Shown: positions 3,284 to 30,364 of the stretch, piece after piece
Numbering within the stretch: position 1 is the stretch's first letter
How the letters are laid out: each line of letters starts with the position of its first letter
Virus record (IMG/VR): IMGVR_UViG_3300023184_000381
Coordinates: 1-30,364 of that record
Direction: 5' to 3' (one strand)
From: a virus
Length of the DNA: 30,364 nucleotides
Program-made: the position numbers and the translations under genes
Notes under the pieces: model-generated
The model's database searches: none
What the model saw: only the letters and a program-made list of their open reading frames with translations
What the model was told of the DNA's origin: nothing

Positions 3284-4582
3284 ATGGATAGTAAAAAATT
3301 CAAACAAAATTTCTCAATAGTAAATCTTAATCAACAGGATGTACCTTTTGTAAATGAAGATGTAAAAAGCAGAACTCAATGGGTTCAAGTTGGTCTACAT
3401 CATACAGATGATTATTTCTTTAAATTAAATGAAGCATATAATACTTCTACAACTAATGCAGCTTGTATTGAAGGTATATCAGATTTAATTTATGGTAAAG
3501 GATTGTATACTAAAAATGCAGGATTTGCTGATACATTAAAAAAGATATTACCACAAGAAGAATTAAAGAAAACTATTTTTGATTTAAAATTATTTGGTAA
3601 TGCAACTTTACAAGTAGTTTGGAATAAAGAACATACTCAGATTATTAAATTCTATCACGCTCCTGTTCAACATTTTAGAGCAGAGAAGTTAAGAGGAATA
3701 CCTAAGATAGAAAATTATTACTATTGTACTGATTGGTTTGACCAAAAAGCAATTAGAAATAAAATTAAAGTTCCAGCTTTTGGAACATCTAATGAACAAA
3801 CTGAATTATTATACATTAAGAATTATTCTCCTGGTCATTTCTATTATTCTTTACCTGATTGGTTTCCTTCATTTCAGTTTTCACAAGTTGAAGCTGAATT
3901 AAGTAATTTACATTTAAACAATATTGAAAATGGTTTCTTACCTATGGTTATGGTTAATTTCAACAATGGAGTTCCAGCACCTGAGGAAAGAGAGACGATA
4001 GAAGGATTGCTAGGGGCTAAATTTACAGGTACTAGAAACGCAGGTAGGTTTATGACATCATTCAACGATGACCCAACTACGAAGCCGACAATCGATGTAA
4101 TACAGATTGATAACCTACATGAGAAGTTTGAATATGTTGCTAATTACGCACAAGAAAAAATATTAGTAGCACATAGAGTTACTTCACCTTTATTATTTGG
4201 TATTACTACTAAAGAAAAAGGATTTAGTTCTAACTCAGAGGAGATGATGACAGCATTTAGTATTATGCAAACTATGACAATATCTCCATTCCAAAATTTA
4301 ATTCTTAATACATTAGAAAAAGCATTGGGTGAAGGTGGATATGATAGTACTGATTTATACTTTGACCAATTAACTCCATTAGCTTTATTATCTCAACAAG
4401 CAGATGATACTAAACAAACAATTGATGAAGTAGCAGATGAAACTAATAAACAAATGGAAAATCCTTCTACAACTGATAATAATGAAGAGGCAATGGATAA
4501 CCAAAGTATTAATACACAACCTAATGTTCAATTAAGTTCAGCATTTTTTAGAAACGAATACGAAATATATAATACAAAATAG
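3284..4582 (+). CDS. Portal protein
   Basis: This 432-residue protein has the typical portal order: a polar N-terminus, the 'ITNAACIEGISDLIYGKGL'-like segment (about 48-66), a long beta-rich wing, a helical region with 'YAQEKILVAHRVTSPLLFGI' (about 286-305), and a Gln/Asn-rich C-terminal tail. Dodecamers form the DNA entry channel at one capsid vertex and dock the terminase (25185-26345). The segment AHRVTSPLLFGITTKEKGFSSN matches the stem/helix region of portals in the SPP1/HK97-like superfamily. It is slightly short for the family. The connector gene at 4586 follows directly, which supports the call. Confidence 0.85.
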   Translation: MDSKKFKQNFSIVNLNQQDVPFVNEDVKSRTQWVQVGLHHTDDYFFKLNEAYNTSTTNAACIEGISDLIYGKGLYTKNAGFADTLKKILPQEELKKTIFDLKLFGNATLQVVWNKEHTQIIKFYHAPVQHFRAEKLRGIPKIENYYYCTDWFDQKAIRNKIKVPAFGTSNEQTELLYIKNYSPGHFYYSLPDWFPSFQFSQVEAELSNLHLNNIENGFLPMVMVNFNNGVPAPEERETIEGLLGAKFTGTRNAGRFMTSFNDDPTTKPTIDVIQIDNLHEKFEYVANYAQEKILVAHRVTSPLLFGITTKEKGFSSNSEEMMTAFSIMQTMTISPFQNLILNTLEKALGEGGYDSTDLYFDQLTPLALLSQQADDTKQTIDEVADETNKQMENPSTTDNNEEAMDNQSINTQPNVQLSSAFFRNEYEIYNTK

Positions 4583-5111: not shown

Positions 5112-6752
5112 ATGGCAGTAGTAAATAATAGTGGATTAAATTATACTCTATATTATAGTGTATTAGATTATTTCAAAACAATAATGAGTAATCATCCTTC
5201 GATAGCACAAGTATCGACCGGTGATAGATTTGGTATTGATGATGTTGAATATCCTTATTATCCATTAGGTAATGTTTTAATTACAGAATCTACGTTTGGT
5301 ACTAATACAACTGAATTTAGTATTCAACTTACTATTGCAGATAAAATAAAATTAAAAAACAATGAAAGTTCAGGTAGTGCAAACTATTTAACAGTTCCAT
5401 ATTTAGGTGTAGATGATGTTGTTGATATTCACGCTAATACTCTAGGTATATTAAATGATTTAACAGCTTATACACAACGTTCTCAACAAGCATTTCAAAT
5501 TAATTCAGATATTAATTGTACTCCATTTAAAGACCAATTTGATAATGGATTAGCAGGTTGGGTTTCTAATTTTACTCTTACTACACATAATGATAAAAAT
5601 ATGTGTTTGTTTGATTTGAATCCACAAACTACAACTTCTACAACAACAGCAGGTCCTACTACGACAACAACTACGTTACAGCCAACTACTACTTCAACGA
5701 CAAGTACAACTTCAACGACAAGTACAACTACATTAGCACCAACGACTACAACAACAACGTTAGAGCCAACAACTACTACGACAAGTACAACTACTGCAGG
5801 ACCAACAACTACAACTACAACGGCAGCATTACCTGGATATAGTTATTATAGAACACTTAATTGTATAACTTCTAGTCTTAGTAGTGTAATTGCAATTGCT
5901 GATTCAATTAGTTCAAGTTTAACACCAGGACAAGTTGCGTGGGGTAATGGAGTTTGTTCAACTTTACCTAATCCACTTACTACAATATCACCTACAACTC
6001 CTAACTTTATAGTAAGTAGTTCATTACAATTTAATTCTTGGTATGGTGGGAATCAATGTGGATATTGTCAGAGAGACCATTATAATGATATAATTATTCC
6101 TTCAGGTTGTTTATCTTATACATATGATTTCTTTGGAGCTGGTATTGGTGATGTTTCAATGACAGCATCATATTTAGATTGTAATTCAAATCCTATAACA
6201 CAATCATTATATATTAGTGGTGCATATGGAGATTTGACATTTGGATTAGCAGCTTCTACAAAACCAGTTATTACTAATTTAGTAACATCAGCAAATATAA
6301 TTAATTCGGCATATACAATAAATGCTTCTCCAACTATTGGTTTACCGGTGAATCCTTACAATCTTTATTTGTACGCAAATGATGGAGGAGCTGGATTAAG
6401 ATATAGTTCTTCTTATAGTAGAGAAGGAAGTGGTACTAATTTAGGATTCAATGGTTCGTATGTTCAAGTTTCACAATTTGACGCTTCATCAGCATTATGT
6501 GATAGTGGAAGCAGAGTTGCAGTATTAGGTAGAGTTAATGACAGTTATGGATTAAATACCGGGGCGAATACATTATCTATTGCAACATTAAGCGGTAGTG
6601 AATCTAATTCTAATAAACAAACTTTAGAATATATTCAATTAAGAAATGACCAGAATTATTGGACACCTAATACAAACCAATTAATACATAATAATTATGG
6701 CGATTGGTTTAATATTAACTTTATGGTAACTTGTTCAATTTATACACCTTAA
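5112..6752 (+). CDS. Tail terminator-like protein fused to Thr-rich linker and Cys-containing display domain
   Basis: This is a 546-residue, three-part protein. Residues 1-170 look like a tail terminator or head-tail joining protein: 'VLDYFKTIMSNHPSIAQVSTGD', then 'YPLGNVLITESTFGTNTTEFS' giving the expected alpha-beta pattern. Residues about 173-240 are a linker of almost only Thr, with Ser, Pro, Ala and Gly interruptions (TTAGPTTTTTT units). Residues about 241-546 form a Tyr/Ser/Asn-rich region with C316-x2-C319-x13-C333-x23-C357. That region shares a pattern with the C-terminal region of 10385-11608. A normal terminator ends near residue 170, so the rest is an extension that probably projects from the neck. 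Its ligand is unknown. Thr repeats may be targets of the nearby glycosyltransferases. Confidence 0.7.
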   Translation: MAVVNNSGLNYTLYYSVLDYFKTIMSNHPSIAQVSTGDRFGIDDVEYPYYPLGNVLITESTFGTNTTEFSIQLTIADKIKLKNNESSGSANYLTVPYLGVDDVVDIHANTLGILNDLTAYTQRSQQAFQINSDINCTPFKDQFDNGLAGWVSNFTLTTHNDKNMCLFDLNPQTTTSTTTAGPTTTTTTLQPTTTSTTSTTSTTSTTTLAPTTTTTTLEPTTTTTSTTTAGPTTTTTTAALPGYSYYRTLNCITSSLSSVIAIADSISSSLTPGQVAWGNGVCSTLPNPLTTISPTTPNFIVSSSLQFNSWYGGNQCGYCQRDHYNDIIIPSGCLSYTYDFFGAGIGDVSMTASYLDCNSNPITQSLYISGAYGDLTFGLAASTKPVITNLVTSANIINSAYTINASPTIGLPVNPYNLYLYANDGGAGLRYSSSYSREGSGTNLGFNGSYVQVSQFDASSALCDSGSRVAVLGRVNDSYGLNTGANTLSIATLSGSESNSNKQTLEYIQLRNDQNYWTPNTNQLIHNNYGDWFNINFMVTCSIYTP

Positions 6753-7115: not shown

Positions 7116-7140
7116 TCATTCAATAAAATTCCTTTTCAAT

Positions 7141-7151
7141 TGGTTATTAAT
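7141..7151 (+). promoter_or_regulatory. Late promoter-like motif TGGTTATTAAT (site 3, one mismatch)
   Basis: It differs from TTGTTATTAAT at the second base. It lies 14 bases before the ATG at 7166, in a 50-bp gap between neck and baseplate genes. Confidence 0.6.
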
Positions 7152-7165
7152 AGAAAGGTATTTAA

Positions 7166-10384: not shown

Positions 10385-11608
10385 ATGAGTCAAGTTATCC
10401 CATTATATCTTCCAACTTACATTAGCTCGATAGATTATCAGCCAGCAAGAGTATTACCTAGATTATTATTTTATAATGGTCAAGTTGATTGCCAAAGTTG
10501 GTATGTAGAAGGATTTCTAAATTCTACTACATCATCAGTATATGGATATGAACAAAACACTTTTCCATATTTTGATAACTACAATGTAGTAAGTGGGTCT
10601 TTTCCAACAACAGATTCACTATCGTTACTTTTTAATAACGAAACATCACCTTACGGAGCAATACCAACCGCTAATTTATATACTGATTATTGGGAAACTT
10701 ATATTCAATTATTATATAATCCATATACAAGATTATTGAATTGTTCAGCAATTATTCCATTAGCAGATTATTTTCAAATGAACTTAAATGATATAGTTGA
10801 ATTTAGAGGAAACTATTATCACTTAAGAGCAATCAATGATTATAATTTACAAAATGGTGAATGTAGTTTACAATTATTAGGACCAATTATTCCAGATTCA
10901 CTTAGTGGTATATTATTCCCTTGTAATTTTGATTTTAGTGTTACTGGATTAACTACGACTACTACAACTACAACCGCAGCACCAACTACAACAACTACAA
11001 CAACGGCAGCACCAACTACAACAACAACCGCAGGACCTACTACGACGACAACTATTGGTCCTAGTACAACTACAACAACAGTAGGGCCTATTGGTGGATA
11101 TTATTATTATGCGGTTAGTGATAGCTGTTGTGGTAGTGAATTAGATAGAGCAATTGCAGGAGTTGTAGCAATTACATCATCATTAGGAATATTCTCTCAA
11201 TATAGAGTAGTTGCTGGAAATACATGGACAGGCAGTACTGGTAGACATTGTGCGGTAATTGAATATGTAACATCATCTACTACTCCATTATTGTTTACTA
11301 TTGAACAAACACAAGCTAATAGTAATACTTATGGTATTGGCCAATGTGGTAGTTGTAATAGAGATTATGTTCCTTCAATAATAGATAATAATTGTCAATA
11401 TTTGGTTGTATCAACTATTTATGGTGAGGGTATATCAACCGCAAGTTGGAATGATTGTACAACAGGAACTGCTATAACACAAAGTAGTAATGGTGATACT
11501 TTAATAACTATGTGTTCAAGAACATCACCTATTTTAAGTTGGCCAAATGGGGTAGAAAAAAGTAAAACAAGATTATCTGTGAGTTGTTCATATTGTGGAA
11601 CGTTTTAA
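10385..11608 (+). CDS. Baseplate protein with Thr-rich linker and Cys-containing display domain
   Basis: This 407-residue protein is in three parts. Residues 1-185 continue the baseplate pattern: 'ARVLPRLLFYNGQVD', then 'YWETYIQLLYNPYTRLLNCSA', then a strand-rich end 'GECSLQLLGPI'. Residues about 190-236 are an almost pure Thr linker with AAP, AGP and IGP breaks. Residues 237-407 are a display-like domain with C321-x2-C324-x12-C337-x20-C358 and 'QCGSCNRD'. That region lines up with 'QCGYCQRD' in the tail terminator fusion at 5112-6752. The AAAAATAAATT leader before the ATG is typical of Bacteroidetes genes. Likely role: tail-tip ring carrying an adhesin or decoration domain. Confidence 0.65.
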   Translation: MSQVIPLYLPTYISSIDYQPARVLPRLLFYNGQVDCQSWYVEGFLNSTTSSVYGYEQNTFPYFDNYNVVSGSFPTTDSLSLLFNNETSPYGAIPTANLYTDYWETYIQLLYNPYTRLLNCSAIIPLADYFQMNLNDIVEFRGNYYHLRAINDYNLQNGECSLQLLGPIIPDSLSGILFPCNFDFSVTGLTTTTTTTTAAPTTTTTTTAAPTTTTTAGPTTTTTIGPSTTTTTVGPIGGYYYYAVSDSCCGSELDRAIAGVVAITSSLGIFSQYRVVAGNTWTGSTGRHCAVIEYVTSSTTPLLFTIEQTQANSNTYGIGQCGSCNRDYVPSIIDNNCQYLVVSTIYGEGISTASWNDCTTGTAITQSSNGDTLITMCSRTSPILSWPNGVEKSKTRLSVSCSYCGTF

Positions 11609-11617
11609 AAATAAATT

Positions 11618-12955
11618 ATGAGTGTAGCTAAAATAATAACATTGACAAACAAAGGAAACGCAGCAGGACCTTACTATGAAGTAAGTTGTTCTAACGATTG
11701 TGTAACTTATGGTTCATGTGTAACAACAGGAAGTGTATATTTACCTACTATTGGTAGTACCGCTACTATTAATATTTATGATACTACAACTTGTATTAAA
11801 TTAGTAAATTATAATACTGAATGTAATAATTCACAAGTACAAACTTTTGCAGCAAGTGGTTCTACAACTTCTACTACAAGTACAAGTACAACTACAACTT
11901 CTACAACTACAACAATATCTCCACTTACAACAAATGGATTAGTATCTTGGTTAAGTTGTAATTCATTAACAGGTTCAATTTGGTATGATAAATCAGTAAA
12001 TGGTAATAATGCATTAGTTAGCGGAAGTGCATTAACACAATCAGGCAGTTTAGGAATTGCATTTAATGGTACAAACAATTATTTAACTTATACTCAGCCA
12101 ATAACAAATCAACCTAGTGCTATTTACACATATCAATTTTATGGTACATTACCATTGACTGGAGCAAATGAATGGATGTTTGTGAATGGTAATGGTAGTA
12201 ATAGAAATGGTTTAATTTGGTCACCAACAACTAGTCAATTTATATGGATAAGCACGGGTCCAGCATATGCAATTACAGTTTCAGTTGCATCTGCTGAAAA
12301 AGCAGTATGGACAATTTTATTAGATTGGAACTTTGGTGGTTTTGAGATTTGGAAAAATAATTCATTTGTTGGATATATAACTGCTGGAGTTTATAAATTT
12401 GATAACTTTGGTGGTTTTGAATTTGGATATTTACAAGGAACAGATGCAACAGGAACATACTTTGCTGGCGCTGCACAAGATTTAATAGTATATAATAGAA
12501 GATTAACAAATGGTGAAATTACAACTAATTATAATTATTTAACTGCACAAAGTTGTAATTATGCACCTACAACAACTACAACAGCAGCACCTACAACAAC
12601 TACAACAACAGCTTCAACTGCAACATTAAATTGGTCATATTCAATAACAGGTGGGCCAACTTCTAATTATATGTACCTTTATATTAATGGTAGTATTGTA
12701 GAAACTAGAAGTTCTACATCATCTGGAAATTATTCGGTAAATTTAGGTGATGTTATTTATGTTGATTTAGGTGCAAGCGGATGTGGTGGAGGAAGTCCTA
12801 AAGCAAATGCATATACGAGTGGAATTATTTCTGATGCAAGTTGTGCAAATGGTACAACAACATTAAGTTCATACAGCTACACAGTAGTATCTGGCGATTT
12901 AGGAAATGTTTTACATTTAGATTGTTTTGCATCTTGTGATTATGGATGTTTGTAA
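11618..12955 (+). CDS. LamG-like adhesin / receptor-binding protein with Thr-rich linkers
   Basis: This 445-residue protein has a Cys-rich N-terminal domain (residues 1-80, with C23, C27 and C33 among others). A Thr/Ser linker follows (about 82-103). Residues about 105-310 form a concanavalin-like (LamG-type) domain: 'LVSWLSCNSLTGSIWYDKS' at its start and 'AAQDLIVYNRRLTNGEITTN' at its end are the usual LamG landmarks. A second Thr linker (316-332) leads to a C-terminal strand-rich, Cys-containing domain ending CFASCDYGCL. LamG domains in phage tails bind glycans, so a role in host surface recognition is likely. It ends the baseplate unit. Confidence 0.65.
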   Translation: MSVAKIITLTNKGNAAGPYYEVSCSNDCVTYGSCVTTGSVYLPTIGSTATINIYDTTTCIKLVNYNTECNNSQVQTFAASGSTTSTTSTSTTTTSTTTTISPLTTNGLVSWLSCNSLTGSIWYDKSVNGNNALVSGSALTQSGSLGIAFNGTNNYLTYTQPITNQPSAIYTYQFYGTLPLTGANEWMFVNGNGSNRNGLIWSPTTSQFIWISTGPAYAITVSVASAEKAVWTILLDWNFGGFEIWKNNSFVGYITAGVYKFDNFGGFEFGYLQGTDATGTYFAGAAQDLIVYNRRLTNGEITTNYNYLTAQSCNYAPTTTTTAAPTTTTTTASTATLNWSYSITGGPTSNYMYLYINGSIVETRSSTSSGNYSVNLGDVIYVDLGASGCGGGSPKANAYTSGIISDASCANGTTTLSSYSYTVVSGDLGNVLHLDCFASCDYGCL

Positions 12956-12963
12956 AATAAAAA

Positions 12964-13010
12964 ATTAATTTGAATTTGTTATTTATTTAATGGCAAATCA
13001 AATTTAATTA
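12964..13010 (+). promoter_or_regulatory. Inverted repeat around late promoter-like variant
   Basis: TTAATTTGA (from about 12965) and TCAAATTTAATT (12999-13010) form a near-perfect inverted repeat with one extra T. An inner AATTTG / CAAAT pairing is also possible. The loop contains the motif variant at 12976. There is no T run, so a terminator is unlikely. It may be a regulatory site for the glycosyltransferase cassette. Confidence 0.35.
12976..12986 (+). promoter_or_regulatory. Late promoter-like motif TTGTTATTTAT (site 4, one mismatch)
   Basis: It has one mismatch to TTGTTATTAAT and lies 27 bases before the ATG at 13014, ahead of the glycosyltransferase/methyltransferase cassette. Confidence 0.45.
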
Positions 13011-15332: not shown

Positions 15333-15358
15333 ATCCTCCATAAAATAATCACTTAGGT

Positions 15359-15369
15359 TTGTTATTAAT
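15359..15369 (+). promoter_or_regulatory. Late promoter-like motif TTGTTATTAAT (site 5)
   Basis: This exact copy is only 3 bases before the ATG at 15373 and 153 bases before the tape measure start. If it is a promoter core, the transcript would be leaderless for 15373, or it serves mainly the tape measure gene. Confidence 0.6.
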
Positions 15370-15372
15370 GTT

Positions 15373-15522
15373 ATGATACAAGGAATTTTAGATTTATTAC
15401 AATTAGATAACTTTTATGGTGTATCAAATAATATTGATATAGCTAAAGGATTATATAGTATACCAAAATCTATTTCAGATGGTACTACACAAATTAAAAG
15501 AGCTTGGAAATCTAAGAAGTAA
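15373..15522 (+). CDS. Small hypothetical protein upstream of tape measure
   Basis: This 49-residue basic protein starts MIQGILDLLQLDNFYGVSNN and ends with a Lys-rich tail. The stop overlaps the tape measure ATG by one base (TAATG), an arrangement repeated at other gene pairs here, so it is probably translated and coupled. A short tail component or chaperone accessory is possible. No family is recognised. The start lies only 3 bases after a promoter-like motif, which makes initiation at this ATG uncertain. Confidence 0.5.
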   Translation: MIQGILDLLQLDNFYGVSNNIDIAKGLYSIPKSISDGTTQIKRAWKSKK

Positions 15523-17144
15523 TGGCGGATAATACAACCACATATAAAGCCGTAATTGAGACCGAAGTAAAAGGTCAGAAGCAAGTTGATGATTTAAACA
15601 AATCATTAGACACAGGTGATGAAAAGTTTGTTTCTTTAAGAAAACAAATTAGAGAAACTACTGTCGCATTGCAAGAGATGGCAGATAAAGGTCAAACTGG
15701 AACTAAAGAATTTAAACAACTATCTGATAAATTAGATGATTTAGGAGATGCACAAAAAAGAGTTGCATTCCAATCAGGTCAAATTGAAGATAAATTATCT
15801 GCATTACCTGGTCCAATCGGACAAATAGGTAAGGGGTTTGCAGCAGCAAAAGATGCAGTAGATACATTTGGTGTTAACTTAGCAATTGCAACAGGTGGTA
15901 TTACCTTAATCATTGGTGCAATTATTGCAATGAAAGATGCAATGGGTAAAACCAAAGAAGGTAATGAGGCATTAAATAAAGTAACTGAAGCATTAGGTAA
16001 GGTAATGGCCCCTATATTTGCTTTATTAGAAAAAGTAGCAATACCATTATTCTTAAAATTTGCAGAAGTATTAGAATGGGTAGCAGGTAAAGTAACTAAA
16101 TTTGTAGAATGGTTAGGTGTATCAAAAGGTAAAATTGGAGAAATTGCAGCAGAAGGTGATAAAGCATTTTGGGATGCTAGAGAAAAAGATTTAGAACATG
16201 CTAAACTTGTGGCAGATACCTATAAAGCAATTGATGATAAAAATAAAGCAGAAGCATTAGAAAGACATAAGAAATGGTTAGATAAACAAGCTGAATTACA
16301 AAGAGAAGCTGATGAAAAAGAAAAGCAAAGTTTAGCTGACCAATTAGCTAAATTAGAAGCTCTTAAAAAGAAATTTAGAGCAGTTAACTTAGACCCAATT
16401 GGTTCAGATGGTTTAACTGTAAAAGAAAGAGAAAAGGCATTAAAAGAAGAAGCAGATAGAAAGAAGTATTTCCAAGATAAAATGGATGCAATGACCAAAG
16501 AACAGCAACCAAAAATGCTAGCTTGGGCATTGGCAAATACTAAAAGTGCATTATCAAAAGAAATAGAATTAAAAAATGCATCAGCTAAAAAAGAAAATGC
16601 AGTTGATACATGGTTGAGTTCTGAAAAGAAAAAGAAATTAGACCAAAACTTACAGGCAGTTAAAGCAGGATTAAACATTGCTGGTAATTTAGTTGATGAA
16701 GGTAGTGGAGCAGCAAAAGCAATTGCAGTAGCACAAACAGGTATAGATACTTATCAATCAGCAACGGCAGCATATAAAGCAGTTGTTGGTATTCCAGTTG
16801 TAGGACCTTTCTTAGCACCGGTAGCAGCAGCGGCAGCAATTGCAGCAGGTTTAATGAGTGTTAATAAAATACTTTCAACACAAATTCCTAAAATGGGAGA
16901 TGGTAGTAGTGGTGGAGGAGTAGGTGCAGAATCAGTATCAATTACACCTCCAACAGCACCTTCACTTCCTTCAATGCAATTTAATGATAGTTCAATGAAT
17001 GTAGGTGGTAATAATCCAACTTCACAAATTGCAAACACATTAGCACAAACAACAAAGAAACCAATTAAAGCATATGTAGTTTCAACAGATATGAGTTCAG
17101 CGCAAGCATTAGATAGAAGAACCAACGTTGCAGCTACATTTTAA
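15522..17144 (+). CDS. Tape measure protein
   Basis: This 540-residue protein is mostly helical with heptad-like Lys/Glu/Ala regions (residues 20-80 and 210-380). Hydrophobic stretches fall near 110-140 ('LAIATGGITLIIGAIIAM'), 160-190 and 415-450 (Ala-rich with 'PVVGPFLAPVAAAAAIAAG'). The C-terminus 'KAYVVSTDMSSAQALDRRTN' is the typical end of Bacteroidetes phage tape measures, which join the tail tip. Length sets tail length: at about 0.15 nm per residue the tail would be near 80 nm, short for a siphovirus. It would be wrapped by chaperones from the frameshifted gene at 26561, which lies elsewhere in the genome. The start overlaps the previous stop. Confidence 0.8.
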   Translation: MADNTTTYKAVIETEVKGQKQVDDLNKSLDTGDEKFVSLRKQIRETTVALQEMADKGQTGTKEFKQLSDKLDDLGDAQKRVAFQSGQIEDKLSALPGPIGQIGKGFAAAKDAVDTFGVNLAIATGGITLIIGAIIAMKDAMGKTKEGNEALNKVTEALGKVMAPIFALLEKVAIPLFLKFAEVLEWVAGKVTKFVEWLGVSKGKIGEIAAEGDKAFWDAREKDLEHAKLVADTYKAIDDKNKAEALERHKKWLDKQAELQREADEKEKQSLADQLAKLEALKKKFRAVNLDPIGSDGLTVKEREKALKEEADRKKYFQDKMDAMTKEQQPKMLAWALANTKSALSKEIELKNASAKKENAVDTWLSSEKKKKLDQNLQAVKAGLNIAGNLVDEGSGAAKAIAVAQTGIDTYQSATAAYKAVVGIPVVGPFLAPVAAAAAIAAGLMSVNKILSTQIPKMGDGSSGGGVGAESVSITPPTAPSLPSMQFNDSSMNVGGNNPTSQIANTLAQTTKKPIKAYVVSTDMSSAQALDRRTNVAATF

Positions 17145-17162
17145 TAATTTTTAACTTTAACA

Positions 17163-17173
17163 TTGTTATTAAT
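17163..17173 (+). promoter_or_regulatory. Late promoter-like motif TTGTTATTAAT (site 6)
   Basis: This exact copy is 5 bases before the ATG at 17179. The start of the XkdF-like gene fits the family N-terminus well, so a leaderless or nearly leaderless transcript would result if the motif is a promoter core. Confidence 0.6.
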
Positions 17174-17178
17174 ACATT

Positions 17179-17949
17179 ATGGATAACTTATTTGAACTTA
17201 CATTAGAAGATGGTGATGAAGGAGTCTTCGCAGTATCATTCGTAGCTGAACCAGCTATTGAAAGAGATTTTGTTTACTTAAACAAAGCAGAAGTTAAATT
17301 TACTGCTATTGATGAAGAAAAACATTTAGTAGCAGGACCTTTATTAATACCTGATAAAAAGATTTTAAGATTAGATTCTTTTAATCAACCTTATCATGTA
17401 TACTTTAAATCTGATACAATTGAACAAATTGCACAACAATACCTAACTAAGAAATATAATGATAAAGTAACTTATGAACATAGTTCTCCGGTTAAAGATG
17501 TTAGTTTAGTAGAAAGTTGGGTTGTAGCAAATCCAACAAAAGATAAATCTAATATATACGGATTTACAATGCCAAAAGGAACATGGTTTGGAATTATGAA
17601 AGTAAACAATCCGGAACTTTGGGCAGATGTAAAAGCTGGTAAAGTAAAAGGATTTAGTATTGAAGGTGAATTTGAACATACGGAAGTTAAGAACTCAATA
17701 CAAATAGATTTAACCAAAGCAATCGTTGATTTAAGTGATGCAGAAGCAAGACAGGTATTAGATAAGATTAAACATATCTTAAAGAACGATGGTAGATATA
17801 GAAAAGGACAAAGAATAGATAAAGTGAATATGGAAGGTGAAGGTGGGCAACCATCAATCATTTCATCTTATCCTGGACAATTCGGACCTGGTAAAAAGAA
17901 AAAGGGAACAAACATTCATCCAGCATTAATTAAAAGAAAAACGATATAA
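17179..17949 (+). CDS. Prohead protease, XkdF-like
   Basis: This 256-residue protein matches the XkdF-type phage protease: 'VSFVAEPAI' (residues 18-27), 'LVAGPLLIPDKKILR' (about 50-64), 'VTYEHSSPV' with H101, 'SLVESWVV' (about 109-116), 'PKGTWFGIMKV' and 'VKGFSIEGEF' with S160. The conserved His and Ser are candidates for the catalytic pair. The enzyme would cleave scaffold (120-917) during head maturation. It lies about 13 kb from the capsid genes around the circle, instead of next to them. The C-terminal 55 residues are Lys/Gly-rich and could bind DNA or the prohead. It heads a unit that runs to 20098. Confidence 0.75.
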   Translation: MDNLFELTLEDGDEGVFAVSFVAEPAIERDFVYLNKAEVKFTAIDEEKHLVAGPLLIPDKKILRLDSFNQPYHVYFKSDTIEQIAQQYLTKKYNDKVTYEHSSPVKDVSLVESWVVANPTKDKSNIYGFTMPKGTWFGIMKVNNPELWADVKAGKVKGFSIEGEFEHTEVKNSIQIDLTKAIVDLSDAEARQVLDKIKHILKNDGRYRKGQRIDKVNMEGEGGQPSIISSYPGQFGPGKKKKGTNIHPALIKRKTI

Positions 17950-22205: not shown

Positions 22206-22253
22206 TAAAGCAGACAGCAGCTAAAGAAAGTAAATAAAAAAATAAATTAAAGT

Positions 22254-22264
22254 TTGTTATTAAT
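22254..22264 (+). promoter_or_regulatory. Late promoter-like motif TTGTTATTAAT (site 7) before an RNA gene
   Basis: This exact copy is followed by no gene start but by three hairpins and a terminator, so if it is a promoter its product is a short noncoding RNA. Confidence 0.65.
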
Positions 22265-22365
22265 CAGTCAGTTCTTTATTGCCATTTAGGCTGACTCCTT
22301 AGTAAATTATGTAGAGGCAAAATAATACTCTACCAACCCTCATCAGTTCTCGGTGAGGGTTTTTT
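22265..22365 (+). ncRNA. Candidate phage small RNA with three hairpins
   Basis: About 100 bases downstream of the promoter-like motif contain three stems in a row. Stem 1 is AGTCAG (22266-22271) with CTGACT (22291-22296), loop 19. Stem 2 is GTAGAG (22311-22316) with CTCTAC (22328-22333), loop 11. Stem 3 is the terminator at 22335-22365. No start codon with a convincing frame is present. The combination of promoter, ordered stems and terminator is the typical layout of a small regulatory RNA. CTGAC in the upstream repeats is complementary to GTCAG of stem 1, so the two parts could interact. Confidence 0.6.
22335..22365 (+). terminator. Strong terminator of the RNA candidate
   Basis: AACCCTCATC (22335-22344) pairs with GGTGAGGGTT (22352-22361), one T-G wobble, loop of 7 bases, followed by TTTT. 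A 10-bp stem with GC core is the strongest hairpin in the early region. Confidence 0.9.
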
Positions 22366-22395
22366 AATGTCTATAAAAAATAATACTAATAATAT

Positions 22396-23820: not shown

Positions 23821-24051
23821 ATGAGTGATAACAAATACGAACCATTAAGTGAAATCGAGTTTATAGAATTAAATAGAGTCTTAAATGAGATAGGAGCATA
23901 CCTACCAGATAACCAAATGAGTTATATATGGAGTAACTTTAATAGAGTAAGGAATGCAACTGAAAATCAACCTTGTGGATGTGCATCAGCCGGCGGTCAT
24001 TGGAAAAGAGCGGTAGAGCATTTGAAACAATGGGTAAAAGAGAGAACATAA
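23821..24051 (+). CDS. Small protein with CGC-x-GGHWKRA motif, 76 residues
   Basis: The N-terminal half is helical and acidic ('SEIEFIELNRVLNEIGAY'); the C-terminal part has 'QPCGCASAGGHWKRAVEHLK', which could bind a metal with the two Cys and His. It starts one base after the previous stop and its stop overlaps the sigma-factor ATG (TAATG), so the two are translationally coupled. Coupling to the sigma factor hints at a partner or control role. The function is otherwise unknown. Confidence 0.55.
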   Translation: MSDNKYEPLSEIEFIELNRVLNEIGAYLPDNQMSYIWSNFNRVRNATENQPCGCASAGGHWKRAVEHLKQWVKERT

Positions 24052-24605
24052 TGTTTGATTCAGGAAGTATGCAAGAAAACACAGAACGATTAGGTATATT
24101 ATATACTAAACATCATCAATGGTTATTAGGAACAGCTTATAACATTTCAAAAAAGCAAGAATTCGCAGAAGATTTAGTCGGTGAATTATATTGTTACTTA
24201 GGAGAAAAAGTAAATCCTAAACTATGGGCTAAAGATTCATTCAACATTCTATATTGTATTCAGTTTATTCAAAGTAGATTTATTAACAAAGTAAAGAGAG
24301 ATGCGAGAATACAATACAAAGGTATAATAACTGAGGAGTATAAGGATAATGAATACGATATAGAATATGATGAAAGATTAGAAAAATGTTATGATGAAGT
24401 ACTAAGAGAAATACAATCAGTAGAAAAGACAGGTATGTGGGTAAGTGCAAAATTGTATAAGATGTATTGGATAGACGAACCAGATGAAACGTTAGAAGGT
24501 ATAAGTAAAAAGATTGGTATAAGTAATAGTACAGCCTTCTTACATATTAAAAAGATGAAAGGACATTTAAAAGATAAATTAAAAAATCCATTTGATAATG
24601 AATAA
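24051..24605 (+). CDS. Sigma-70-family RNA polymerase sigma factor (phage)
   Basis: This is a 184-residue protein. Region 2 is visible at about 14-75 ('LYTKHHQWLLGTAYNISK', then 'EFAEDLVGELYCYL'), the core-binding and -10-recognition helices, with the AEDLVxE pattern of ECF-type sigmas. Region 4 is at about 148-178 ('LEGISKKIGISNSTAFLHIK'), a helix-turn-helix. It is probably the activator of late transcription and would read the TTGTTATTAAT motif present before late units. The upstream in-frame region (from 23973) is shared with 23821-24051; the ATG at 24051 overlaps that gene's stop, so I chose it. No anti-sigma gene is recognised. Confidence 0.8.
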   Translation: MFDSGSMQENTERLGILYTKHHQWLLGTAYNISKKQEFAEDLVGELYCYLGEKVNPKLWAKDSFNILYCIQFIQSRFINKVKRDARIQYKGIITEEYKDNEYDIEYDERLEKCYDEVLREIQSVEKTGMWVSAKLYKMYWIDEPDETLEGISKKIGISNSTAFLHIKKMKGHLKDKLKNPFDNE

Positions 24606-24709: not shown

Positions 24710-24856
24710 ATGAATGAAGAACAATTAAAAGAAATAGCAGAAAAGTTTAAAGCTAGTCTAAGCTTAGAAGAATTAGATGAATTAGAAAGACAATATAATG
24801 AGATGTATCAGAAACTAAAGTCACAACAAAGTAGTTCAATAGAAAAAAAAGATTAA
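24710..24856 (+). CDS. Small helical protein, 48 residues
   Basis: This acidic helix ('MNEEQLKEIAEKFKASLSLE', then 'LDELERQYNEMYQKLKS') has strong coiled-coil potential and a polar Ser/Lys tail. It is the last gene of the early cluster and lies directly before the terminase promoter motif. It could be an anti-sigma or assembly helper, but no motif shows this. Confidence 0.5.
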   Translation: MNEEQLKEIAEKFKASLSLEELDELERQYNEMYQKLKSQQSSSIEKKD

Positions 24857-24857
24857 G

Positions 24858-24868
24858 TTGTTATTCAT
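24858..24868 (+). promoter_or_regulatory. Late promoter-like motif TTGTTATTCAT (site 8, one mismatch)
   Basis: It is one mismatch from the consensus, 33 bases before the ATG of the terminase small-subunit gene, in a 45-bp gap between early and late genes. Confidence 0.5.
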
Positions 24869-24901
24869 ATATACAGAATATAATAACGACAAATAACGAT
24901 T

Positions 24902-25219
24902 ATGGCGAAGTTTGAACAAGGAAATAAGATAGGTAAAGGTAGACCAAAAGGTAAACCAAATAAAACAACTGCAGAGATAAAAGATATTATTACTCGTATT
25001 GTTGGTAATCAGTTAGAACATATAGAAGCTGATTTAGAAAAGATAAGAAAGAATGACCCTGCAGAAGCAATGAGGTTATCATCTAAGTTTATAGATTATG
25101 TTATACCAAAACAAACTAAGATAGATTTAGAAGGTGAGTTAAGACATAAGGTAGATAAATTAGTTATTGAGATTAAAACAAACAATGGCAAGAACAGCGA
25201 CGATAGAAACAACGATTAG
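24902..25219 (+). CDS. terS: Terminase small subunit
   Basis: This 105-residue protein starts with a Gly/Lys-rich arm ('KFEQGNKIGKGRPKGKPNKT', i.e. the GN-x-x-GKGRPKGxPNKTT pattern of Bacteroidetes phage small terminases) and continues as helices. It ends with a polar Asn/Asp tail. It would recognise packaging initiation sites and feed DNA to the large subunit. Its 3' end overlaps the large-subunit gene by 35 bases, which supports co-translation and the call. It is shorter than many small terminases (about 130-180 residues). Confidence 0.7.
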   Translation: MAKFEQGNKIGKGRPKGKPNKTTAEIKDIITRIVGNQLEHIEADLEKIRKNDPAEAMRLSSKFIDYVIPKQTKIDLEGELRHKVDKLVIEIKTNNGKNSDDRNND

Positions 25220-26560: not shown

Positions 26561-27333
26561 ATGAAACAAGAAATTACCATTGAAGTACCTAATGATTGGT
26601 CAGCGATTACATTAAGAAAATATTTAGAATTATCAGCAGATTTAAAAGCATATGAAGGTGAAGCAGAAGCAACTCAAGCCGCTTTATTTTATCACTTATG
26701 TGGATTAACGCCTGAGCTAATGTTAAAATTAGATACTGAAACGTTTATTAAAATTAAAAATAAATTAAACTCATTTGTACAAGAGATTGAATTACCATTA
26801 GTCCGTACATTCTTTAGAAATGGAGTTGAGTATGGTTTTTATCCTAACTTATCAAAGATTGAGTATGGTGCTTATATTGATATAGCTAAATTAAATTCAG
26901 TAACTATAAACGAAGATTGGGCAAAGATAATGGCTATACTATATCGTCCTATTACAAATAAGTTAGCAAAAGGATATGAAGTAAAATCCTATAATGGTAA
27001 TGAGGAATGGGATTGGTTTTTAGATTTAGGAATGGATGTTCACTTTGGAGCATGGTTTTTTTTTATCAATTTGTCAATGGACTTATTGAGCTCTATCCCG
27101 AACTCTATGATGAAGAAAGTAATGGAAATGTCACCCAATATCAAATCAACTTTGGAAAAAAGTGGGGTAACTATTCAGCAGTAATTGAATTAGCTAATGG
27201 TAATATTAATGAAATAGATTTAGTAGTCAAACAACCATTAGAGAAATGTTTATTACTCCTAGCGTTTAAAGCAGATACTAACTATGTATCTGAGATGATT
27301 CATAAAGAACAGATGGCTAAAATAAGTCAATAA
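26561..27333 (+). CDS. Tail assembly chaperone with -1 frameshift (G/GT type)
   Basis: The in-frame product runs from 26561 to 27184 (207 residues; 'EVPNDWSAITLRKYLELSAD' near the start). At 27056-27064 there are nine T in the 0 frame (TGG-TTT-TTT-TTT-ATC), containing the slip heptamer T-TTT-TTT. A second frame (-1) is open across this point to 27333 ('YQFVNGLIELYPELYDEESN', then 'NFGKKWGNYSAVIELANGN'). A -1 slip gives a 257-residue product. This is the arrangement of siphophage tail chaperones: the short form and the long form bind tape measure and tail tube. Separate initiation of the second frame is unlikely because the two frames overlap by about 180 bases. It lies unusually far from the tape measure gene. 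Confidence 0.75.
27056..27064 (+). other. Frameshift slip site (run of nine T)
   Basis: The T run is in phase with codons TTT TTT TTT, preceded by GG, and gives T-TTT-TTT for a -1 slip. Polymerase slippage on the same run could also produce both products. No strong downstream stimulatory hairpin is visible. Confidence 0.65.
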
Positions 27334-27348
27334 TTTTTCTTTACTACT

Positions 27349-27359
27349 TTGTTATTAAT
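27349..27359 (+). promoter_or_regulatory. Late promoter-like motif TTGTTATTAAT (site 9)
   Basis: This exact copy is 14 bases before the ATG at 27374, ahead of the tail fiber unit, which ends near 30300. Confidence 0.65.
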
Positions 27360-27373
27360 AGAAACGATTAACA

Positions 27374-27663: not shown

Positions 27664-30120
27664 ATGAGCTTAACAAAACAACAGTTAGAAGCACTAAATA
27701 ATAATTCGTTTCCTAATAACAATGCGGGAGCAATTACACCTGATATATTAAGACAATATAACACAGCAACAATTGATTCAACTGTCAATCAAGATGTATA
27801 TACAGCAGATAGTGCAAGTTTTTCACAAAGAATAAATTCAGTTGCTAATATTGATACTGCATCTTTTGCAACAACGGGTAGTAACACATTCATAGGTGAC
27901 CAAACAATTGTTGGTAATGTAACTTTCCCTAGCAGTTCTTTTATATCAACAAACAATGTAAGTGGTAATTTATATTTCTCAGCATTGAATGGTGGTATAC
28001 TACATTTAAATGATGATGGTGGTGAAGGTGATGTAATAATTGGATATGTAGGAAGTGCAGGTAAATTAAAAGTAAAAGAAGATTCAGAATTTACTGGAAG
28101 TATATATCAGAGTGGTACATTTTACGCAGACCAAATAGATGTATCATTAGGTGGTATTGTAGGAACAACGGGCTCATTTATAGCAACATTTACAAGTGGT
28201 GGAGTATTAACTTATGCTGATTATCAAAATGTAGCAACAGCATTACAACCTTATATTCAAACGGGTAGCGCAATAGATACAGGTAGTTTATTAACAACTG
28301 CATCTTTCAATTCGTACACTTCATCACAAGATTTTAAGAATACAACATTCGCAACAACAAGTAGTGTAACTGCATTATCTCAATCATTATATTTTACTGA
28401 TACAACTCAAAGTGCTAATATAGCAACTAATAGTTCTTCAATTGGATTACTACAAACATTCTCTGGTTCTCAATATAAAAATGATAGTTCTTCTTTCAAT
28501 AGTAGAATAAATGCAATTACAGGTAGTGGTGGAAGTGGAACAGGAGCAACAACAGGAAGTAATTCATTTACTGGTTCTCAAACAATCAATGGTAATATTA
28601 TTTTAACTGGAAGTAGTGCTGAAATACAAAATGCTAAAAAAGTTGGTATATTTAATTCATTATATAATTTAGATTATAGTTTAGCAATGCCAATACAAAA
28701 TACTATTGGATATATTGATGAATTAAATTTACCACATTATTACAATGGTGGTGTTCAACCAACTATTAGTGCAAGCGCTACAATAAATAATCATAACTTA
28801 GTTAAGGTAACTCCACAGCAATGGTTTAATTTAACTGCAAGTGTGGGAGATAATCATACTGGTATATTATCAGTTGAACAATCTACTGGATGGAATGATA
28901 TTAATAATACGTTTGGAGTACATGGTAACTATGTAACAAGCGGCTCAGTAAATTATATTACACAAAGAGGTTTAAGTAAAATTGGAATATTCCCATTAGG
29001 TGGAAACCCAACACAACCTTATATCGGACAACCTATTTATGTTGATGATAATGGTTATCAATTAACAACAGGATATCCGAGTGGTTCAAGAGTATTAAGA
29101 TATGGTTATGTTGCTTCATTTGAGCAAACAGACCCAATGAATATGTATGTTAGACAAATATTCGTAGACCCTGTTTGGGAGAAAGGAGAAACAATTACAG
29201 ATTTAAATGTTAGTTCATCCCTAAGAGTGACTGGTAGTTTAAATGTGACGGGTTCTACAAATTTTAGTGAATTAACTGGAAGTTTAGCAACATATAGTGC
29301 TAGTGTTAGTAGTAGAATTAATGCAATAACAAGTAGTGCAACAATTAATACTGGCAGTTTTGCAACAACGGGTAGTAATACATTTGTAGGTAATCAAACT
29401 ATAACAGGTAGTTTATCTATTAGTTCATCTATACAAAAAGATGTATTAGTTGAAGGACAATTATGGATTAGTAGTTCAAACTTATTTGCATCTGGAGCAA
29501 CGGTTCAACCACAAATTAATCTTTCTGGTCCAACGCAAGGAACTACATATGGTGCAAGAAGTGGTTCAATGACTATTAGACCAGCAGCAATTACTATACT
29601 AAGAGGTAATACTACTTCTGATTACACAGCAGGTGGTATTAATTCAACTGGACCGGCTTTGGCAAATAGATTACAGGCAGTAACTTCAGCAGAATATACT
29701 TTAGCTGTAACAGATGCTGCTACCTATCAAAATGAATTAAAATTATTAGTAGATACAACAGGTATAGCATTAAAAGATTTTGATAATACATTAAACGATT
29801 ATACAAGTTTCTTAACAATAGCACCTAACGATGGTGTAACAATACCTCCGGTTAAATTCCAAAGAGCAGTTAACTTTACAACTGGTTCTAATCAGCAAGC
29901 AGGAACTGCAACACTTAATGGTGGTAATCCAGGAACTGTGACAGTATCTAACTCATTGGTAACTGCAAACTCAATCATTATGTTAACTAAACAAACTAAT
30001 ACAAATACTAATGCGGGGCCGGTAGTTGTAAGTGCAAAGACTAATGGTAGTTTTACTATAACATCTAATCATAATGGTGATTCAGATACAGTAGGATGGT
30101 TTATCATAAATAACTCATAA
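27664..30120 (+). CDS. Tail fiber / tail appendage protein with repeated ATTGSNTF-x-G units
   Basis: This 818-residue protein starts 'MSLTKQQLEALNNNSFPNNN' with 'AGAITPDILRQYNTATIDS', the N-terminal anchor seen in many phage fibers from aquatic metagenomes. It contains three copies of an ATTGSNTF-x-G-x-QTIxG element at about residues 69, 295 and 567, and shorter 'SFxSRINAIT' coiled-coil-like segments at each. These are fiber shaft repeats. The C-terminal 200 residues are strand-rich and have no repeat, so they may hold the receptor-binding tip. No chaperone or peptidase domain is recognised at the end. It is the longest gene in the genome. Confidence 0.75.
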   Translation: MSLTKQQLEALNNNSFPNNNAGAITPDILRQYNTATIDSTVNQDVYTADSASFSQRINSVANIDTASFATTGSNTFIGDQTIVGNVTFPSSSFISTNNVSGNLYFSALNGGILHLNDDGGEGDVIIGYVGSAGKLKVKEDSEFTGSIYQSGTFYADQIDVSLGGIVGTTGSFIATFTSGGVLTYADYQNVATALQPYIQTGSAIDTGSLLTTASFNSYTSSQDFKNTTFATTSSVTALSQSLYFTDTTQSANIATNSSSIGLLQTFSGSQYKNDSSSFNSRINAITGSGGSGTGATTGSNSFTGSQTINGNIILTGSSAEIQNAKKVGIFNSLYNLDYSLAMPIQNTIGYIDELNLPHYYNGGVQPTISASATINNHNLVKVTPQQWFNLTASVGDNHTGILSVEQSTGWNDINNTFGVHGNYVTSGSVNYITQRGLSKIGIFPLGGNPTQPYIGQPIYVDDNGYQLTTGYPSGSRVLRYGYVASFEQTDPMNMYVRQIFVDPVWEKGETITDLNVSSSLRVTGSLNVTGSTNFSELTGSLATYSASVSSRINAITSSATINTGSFATTGSNTFVGNQTITGSLSISSSIQKDVLVEGQLWISSSNLFASGATVQPQINLSGPTQGTTYGARSGSMTIRPAAITILRGNTTSDYTAGGINSTGPALANRLQAVTSAEYTLAVTDAATYQNELKLLVDTTGIALKDFDNTLNDYTSFLTIAPNDGVTIPPVKFQRAVNFTTGSNQQAGTATLNGGNPGTVTVSNSLVTANSIIMLTKQTNTNTNAGPVVVSAKTNGSFTITSNHNGDSDTVGWFIINNS

Positions 30121-30300: not shown

Positions 30301-30364
30301 CCCAAAAATAACAAAAAATAAAAATCAAATTGTTATTAATAGTAAATCAATTATAATATGAACG
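30239..30364. repeat. Terminal direct repeat, right copy
   Basis: These 126 bases are identical to 1-126. See the left copy for interpretation. Removing one copy gives a circle of 30,238 bases in which the small gene 30124-30300 is followed by a promoter-like motif and then the scaffold gene at 120. Confidence 0.95.
30330..30340 (+). promoter_or_regulatory. Duplicate of late promoter-like motif site 1
   Basis: This is the same site as 92-102, repeated by the terminal overlap. It should be counted once in any motif tally. Confidence 0.6.

Follow-up and report, generated by a model that had tools for sequence, protein, structure and literature searches.

The open reading frame at 24051-24605 (+ strand) of the window, by which the whole analysed stretch of 30,364 nucleotides is meant, raises the question whether this phage pairs a sigma factor of its own with a genome-wide set of late promoters. 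Such a pairing had been proposed in an earlier, sequence-only reading, and it was supported computationally. The window is an IMG/VR-type virus record in its own right and amounts to one complete virus-like genome, in which 30,238 bases are unique and a terminal repeat takes up 126; nearly all of its genes are carried on the + strand. Well over 100 related contigs were recovered from IMG/VR by terminase and sigma searches. In contigs G038 and G041 the share of sequence that seems intergenic was unusually large (5.7 and 6.8 kb), which may come from frame errors or unannotated genes. Three virion-region genes of the window (5112-6752, 10385-11608 and 11618-12955) contain long threonine-rich repeats of the TTTTTSTTS type.

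GTDB genome contigs (84,980 cellular species genomes) scanned with the sigma alignment gave 65 pattern matches with 0 confirmed relatives, and neither a host nor a prophage. The host is likely to be a member of the Bacteroidota, because the cultured phages closest to it in terminase, portal and capsid-region protein have Flavobacteriaceae and other Bacteroidota as hosts and because Shine-Dalgarno-like words were depleted before genes (40/782 versus 77/782 in a control interval); flavobacteria are the most likely hosts of this small-virus family.

A predicted ECF-type sigma factor near the terminase genes

The product of the open reading frame is 184 amino acids long, with region 2 at approximately residues 7-90 and region 4 at approximately residues 104-176, and its gene precedes that of the large terminase by the width of three ORFs. 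The position of the gene agreed with the earlier claim, as did the presence of regions 2 and 4, since both folds were found by per-domain alignment of an AlphaFold2 model. At the level of sequence, Pfam Sigma70_r2 matched the window protein with an E-value of 0.0064 and 16.7 bits, below the curated cut-off of 24 and hence short of a curated ECF family score; the same profile gave sub-threshold matches in 5/7 family members (best E 0.00036), while Sigma70_r4 scored in one member only (E 0.037). The window protein was also matched by PHROG 1740 (RNA polymerase sigma factor; E 0.0011). A profile search of PDB sequences gave no sigma hit, the assignment having come from the fold search, and when the sigma was compared directly with 50,697 phage records by tblastn, the matches were all spurious.

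The AlphaFold2 model was built from 7 relatives (mean pLDDT 74.9, pTM 0.42), and ECF sigma factors headed its Foldseek list. The rmsd of the whole model was large because the two domains were placed differently, but each domain fitted well by itself: region 2 alone (model residues 7-90) was superposed on RpoE (5uxx) with Z 9.4 and 2.1 Å over 81 residues and on the N-terminal fragment of SigR with 2.3 Å over 75 residues, and region 4 alone (residues 108-182) on region 4 of E. coli SigmaE on -35 DNA (2h27) with Z 9.6 and 2.2 Å over 69 residues. Neither region 1.1 nor a region 3 domain was seen, as only a 15-residue low-confidence linker lies between the two domains. By its modelled fold the protein is a divergent ECF-type (group 4) sigma factor, and it is filed by fold because the Pfam family scores fall below the cut-off. 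In a scan with the sigma profile, the gene was found in 31/32 larger related contigs, near the terminase genes; in the lone exception (G039) the contig starts near the terminase gene, perhaps through truncation.

Promoter-like sites before late units

Nine positions had been listed as carrying the motif, and on comparison with the ORFs all nine proved correct, on the + strand and intergenic. Six are exact copies of TTGTTATTAAT (92, 2851, 15359, 17163, 22254 and 27349) and three have one mismatch (TGGTTATTAAT at 7141, TTGTTATTTAT at 12976 and TTGTTATTCAT at 24858); the exact word also stands at 30330, where the terminal repeat duplicates the site at 92. The exact word was counted 6 times on the + strand and 0 times on the - strand, with a mean of 0.06 and a maximum of 2 in 300 dinucleotide shuffles, and when post-hoc choice of the word was allowed for, some 11-mer reached at least 6 copies in 4/300 shuffles. 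The one-mismatch count on both strands, also set against shuffled sequence, was not convincing alone (11 found, 6.2 expected, 5/100 shuffles as high). Taken by itself, the window makes a solid case for the six exact sites and only a suggestive one for the three with a mismatch.

The strong evidence comes from the relatives. When a matrix built from relatives only was run on the window, eight of its nine sites took the top places on the + strand with scores of 17.7 to 12.1, the next-best + site scoring 10.3 and the site at 22254 scoring 6.9; on the - strand, the highest scores (12.5 and 12.1) fall in the range of the weakest true sites. The usual core at the 7141-type site is TGGTTA (22/31 relatives), and the mismatch at 7141 is therefore not noise. 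Comparison with relatives rescues the one-mismatch sites, which are conserved types. Related phages were found to carry the sigma gene and to have sites at the same loci, and over the family the predicted promoters precede nearly all of the virion genes.

The predicted promoters, all on the + strand, precede late units and one RNA gene, as had been claimed. The promoter at 70-105 (-10 core 92-97; leave-one-genome-out score 14.6) lies before the gene at 120-917, which starts the head gene unit and whose product has the N-terminus MNAKQV; this site belongs to orthologous-site class 3, with the core TTGTTA in 40/43 relatives. The highest score (17.7) was obtained for the promoter at 2829-2864 (core 2851-2856; class 0, 41 relatives), before gene 2893 and the portal gene at 3284. 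The promoter at 7119-7154 (core TGGTTA, 7141-7146; score 12.1) precedes gene 7166 in the virion region, and that at 12954-12989 (core 12976-12981; score 16.6; class 9, few relatives) precedes gene 13014 (phrog_4417). At 15337-15372 (score 13.0; class 4) the promoter stands before a 49-aa ORF (15373-15522) and the tape measure gene at 15522, with an ATG 3 nt past the 11-mer, and at 17141-17176 (score 14.6; class 2) before the head protease gene at 17179 (Peptidase_S78_2, Pfam), with an ATG 5 nt past it. The 49-aa ORF follows the 15359 promoter immediately and overlaps the start of the tape measure gene; its short homologues in relatives have leaderless-type starts. The promoter at 22232-22267 (core 22254-22259), the weakest by the matrix, precedes the small RNA, and this arrangement of promoter and hairpin is kept in relatives. 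The presumed small terminase gene at 24902 and the large terminase gene at 25167 follow the promoter at 24836-24871 (core 24858-24863; score 12.9), which belongs to class 5, the class with the most variable core. The last promoter, at 27327-27362 (core 27349-27354; score 14.2; class 1, 45 relatives), lies before gene 27374 and an 818-aa gene at 27664.

A two-block element in related phages

A family logo was made from 164 intergenic TTGTTA sites near ORF starts of related genomes, index 0 being the first T of TTGTTA. In this logo the -10 core TTGTTA is followed by W and A at +6 and +7, and a -35 block stands before it at fixed spacing (index -22 to -12), with a consensus near TTAACTATAAA and A at -16 in 94%; A was present at index 13 in 75% of leadered sites. 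The window's own -35 element is AATAA-like. In a leave-one-genome-out scan of 33 genomes, 179 matches were + intergenic, 10 - intergenic, 8 + coding and 19 - coding, where the + intergenic count is inflated by the choice of the training sites from + intergenic DNA near ORF starts, but each genome's matches still came from a matrix that never saw that genome. In the same scan FPSV-S2 and PM708P4, two phages lacking the sigma, had 1 and 0 + intergenic matches.

The predicted promoter is a two-block one, not T4-gp55-like: the one-block late promoter of the T4 gp55 type that had been suggested is not supported, given the conserved -35 block at fixed spacing and the region-4 fold. The TAnnTTTG-type promoters that had been assigned to the early genes did not hold up over the family either, with no strand bias among intergenic matches (109 on + versus 124 on -).

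Concerted change of the sites and covariation of the -35 block with the sigma factor

Private versions of the -10 element were found in individual genomes, namely TTGTTATTAAT in the window, TTGTTATCTAT in G003 and TTGTTATTATT in G006, with TTGTTAAATAA in many. Concerted change was tested by shuffling sites among genomes within each orthologous-site class. For the tail bases +6 to +10, identity between different sites of one genome was 0.602, versus 0.447 after shuffling (z 12.5, 0/1000), and the -35 block also changed in concert (z 5.6); the upstream and downstream controls gave -1.0 and 1.3. Composition plays some part, because the spacer control likewise showed mild concerted change (z 2.7) and mild covariation. 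Agreement between different sites cannot be produced by separate descent of each site, and these private variants therefore point to a shared trans-acting reader.

Divergence of the -35 block was then set against divergence of the sigma with ten other phage proteins controlled, which gave a partial rho of 0.44 (0/999 permutations as high), and covariation was higher with region 4 (0.39) than with region 2 (0.29). This covariation supports the phage sigma as the probable reader. For the -10 tail and overall sigma distance, with the other proteins controlled, the partial rho was 0.08 and not significant (190/999). Links of residue 67 with +6 and of residue 64 with +7 were marginal as a test of region 53-75 (p 0.04-0.09, phylogeny uncorrected), and single-residue links of the sigma to promoter bases are suggestive only. 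The largest shift among the IMG/VR relatives was seen in G043 (loci L225 and L226), which had a GTGTTTTTA-like core at all five sites found.

Predicted transcription start, leaderless genes and a small RNA

The ATG was exactly at index 13 in 24/31 relatives for the protease class and in 19/27 for the 15359 class. The earlier suggestion of leaderless mRNAs thus stood for the relatives, and in the window itself the two ATGs fall at index 14 and 16, so that the mRNAs of these two close sites would be leaderless or have a very short leader. Three independent features (A enrichment, the position of the ATG and the start of the small-RNA hairpin) meet at index 12-13, and we infer an RNA start some 13 nt beyond the core's first T. 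In Flavobacterium psychrophilum, few mRNAs (5.5%) are reported to be leaderless (PMC9723704).

The small non-coding RNA (22265-22366, + strand) has three predicted stems, the last of which is an intrinsic terminator with a T run, and the first stem starts 0-3 nt past the 11-mer. Among 11 relatives, 9/17 predicted pairs were changed on both sides in a compensating way. The RNA is present in many relatives, with GCCATT conserved in its first loop, and in several the sigma gene follows it at a distance of 1.6-2.9 kb. No Rfam family was above threshold for the small RNA, and a weak match to a Staphylococcus sRNA upstream of it was below the Rfam threshold as well. A late-expressed regulator and a packaging-related RNA are guesses at its role.

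Comparison with known phage sigma factors

In T4, gp55 is a sigma factor without region 4 that reads one TATAAATA block, aided by gp33 and the sliding clamp. It resembles the window protein as a phage sigma for late genes and differs from it in that a -35 block and region 4 are present here; the window system has neither the one-block promoter nor the lack of region 4, and gp55 is a poorer analogy than gp47 of Salmonella phage 7-11. The latter is the closest known system, a phage-encoded sigma with bipartite phage-specific promoters before late genes: gp47 acts with host core on GTAAtg-(16)-aCTA, a consensus present at eight sites before late genes, and RNA starts 6-9 nt past the -10-side element (PMC8948821). 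Phage 7-11 differs in its consensus and in being a 90-kb enterobacterial phage, and leaderless mRNAs are unmentioned in PMC8948821. In phiEco32 the phage-encoded gp36 serves middle and late promoters with the single element tAATGTAtA, compared with two blocks here, and PMC8948821 reports no region-4 homology for it. Comparison by hhalign, with a shallow profile against a single sequence in each case, gave no homology to gp47 (probability 1.5%) or gp36 (probability 1.4%). The window sigma may accordingly be said to work like gp47 by analogy, and it is not filed as a member of a gp36/gp47 family.

A cultured relative was reached by way of the portal and capsid-region proteins of the Nonlabens phages P12024S and P12024L (Inhavirus), which are homologous to those of the window family. 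Near their terminase these phages encode sigma-like proteins (gp33/gp35) homologous to the window sigma; gp33 of P12024S is shorter and about 25% identical, and was aligned with the sigma family by hhalign at 93.6% (E 2e-7). In the P12024S genome (NC_018271, L231), AAAAC followed at the same spacing by GTTA occurs at seven sites before annotated genes (166, 3018, 5399, 21268, 23948, 25188 and 26789) and at one other. The two-block form before late units is common to P12024S and the window phage, whereas the elements of P12024S are AAAAC and CGTTAAT/CGTTACT rather than those of the window family. The ATG is at index 13 in 6/7 of these sites, and nearly all late mRNAs of P12024S would be leaderless.

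Discussion

The explanation that best fits what was computed (the sites, their two-block form and conservation, the concerted change, the sigma fold, the co-occurrence and the covariation of -35 block and sigma) is, with high probability, that the phage's own ECF-type sigma drives the nine two-block promoters. The sigma would bind host core RNA polymerase and direct it to these promoters by direct recognition, region 4 reading the -35 element and region 2 the -10 element (TTGTTATTAAT here, with a TTGTTA core in most relatives), and the RNA would begin some 13 nt past the core's first T. In this way the units for head, tail, packaging and fibre would be turned on jointly with one small RNA, presumably late in infection, and at two genes the start would fall on or next to the ATG, leaving an mRNA that is leaderless or nearly so. 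Since a single protein would read every site, the specificity of the sigma and all of its sites would drift jointly, which would give each phage a private version of the promoter.

A host sigma factor, whether an alternative (ECF) or the primary one, could instead read the sites, the phage protein acting otherwise and the private variants reflecting different hosts. Flavobacteria have several ECF sigma factors (PMC9723704), and binding of the phage sigma to the sites is here deduced from sequence; but the -35 block diverges more closely with the phage sigma than with ten other phage proteins, the gene is kept in 31/32 relatives, the two phages without this sigma are also without the sites, and the host primary consensus TAnnTTTG is neither enriched nor seen in the site logo, which leaves this reading improbable. 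RinA, ArpU and Xpf are late regulators of the activator kind. So is Ltr of phage Phi13 (PMC13123087), and a sigma-like activator of this style, recruiting host holoenzyme to late promoters instead of taking the place of host sigma, would have its gene in a similar position near the terminase. We regard it as no more probable than a host sigma, as a region-2 fold is present besides region 4 and the -10 and -35 blocks stand at sigma-like spacing with no host -7 box.

Two further readings of the sites were given still less weight. The proximity of the sites to ATG codons, some only 2-5 nt off, would suit another repeated signal, such as the operator of a regulator, a processing site or a translation signal; it is very unlikely, given that the distance to the ATG varies from 1 to more than 40 nt by site class, that one site precedes a non-coding RNA with a stem right behind the motif, and that A is found at index 13 in leadered and leaderless sites alike. 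One-block late promoters like those of T4 gp55 are suggested by the exact 11-mer, the most visible part when the window genome is taken alone, and have a similarly slight probability in view of region 4 in the protein and of a -35 block that keeps its distance and changes in concert.

With the phage's own sigma as the preferred reader, the mechanism is of a known kind, and what is new is the group of phages that uses it, together with a two-block code that drifts in concert, the small RNA and the conservation of leaderless late genes. The literature, subscription papers and preprints aside, yielded no account of such promoters for the group. There is perhaps an even chance that a widespread and almost wholly uncultured group of flavobacterial-type phages is characterized by an ECF-type sigma, a fast, jointly drifting code, late mRNAs that start with AUG (some of them, and nearly all in P12024S), a sigma-controlled small RNA and promoter sets largely private to their own sigma. 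Dozens of genomes, each with one recogniser and five to nine targets changed in concert, would make natural variation a readable code of sigma specificity and a record of how a regulator and all of its sites move together. They also provide a genome-based map of late transcription for a phage group often met in metagenomes and scarcely studied by experiment, with P12024S and P12024L as a cultured pair for testing. For work in Bacteroidota they offer a candidate toolkit of orthogonal sigma-promoter pairs. How translation is started by ribosomes that do not use Shine-Dalgarno sites is a question on which the conserved leaderless late genes would bear.
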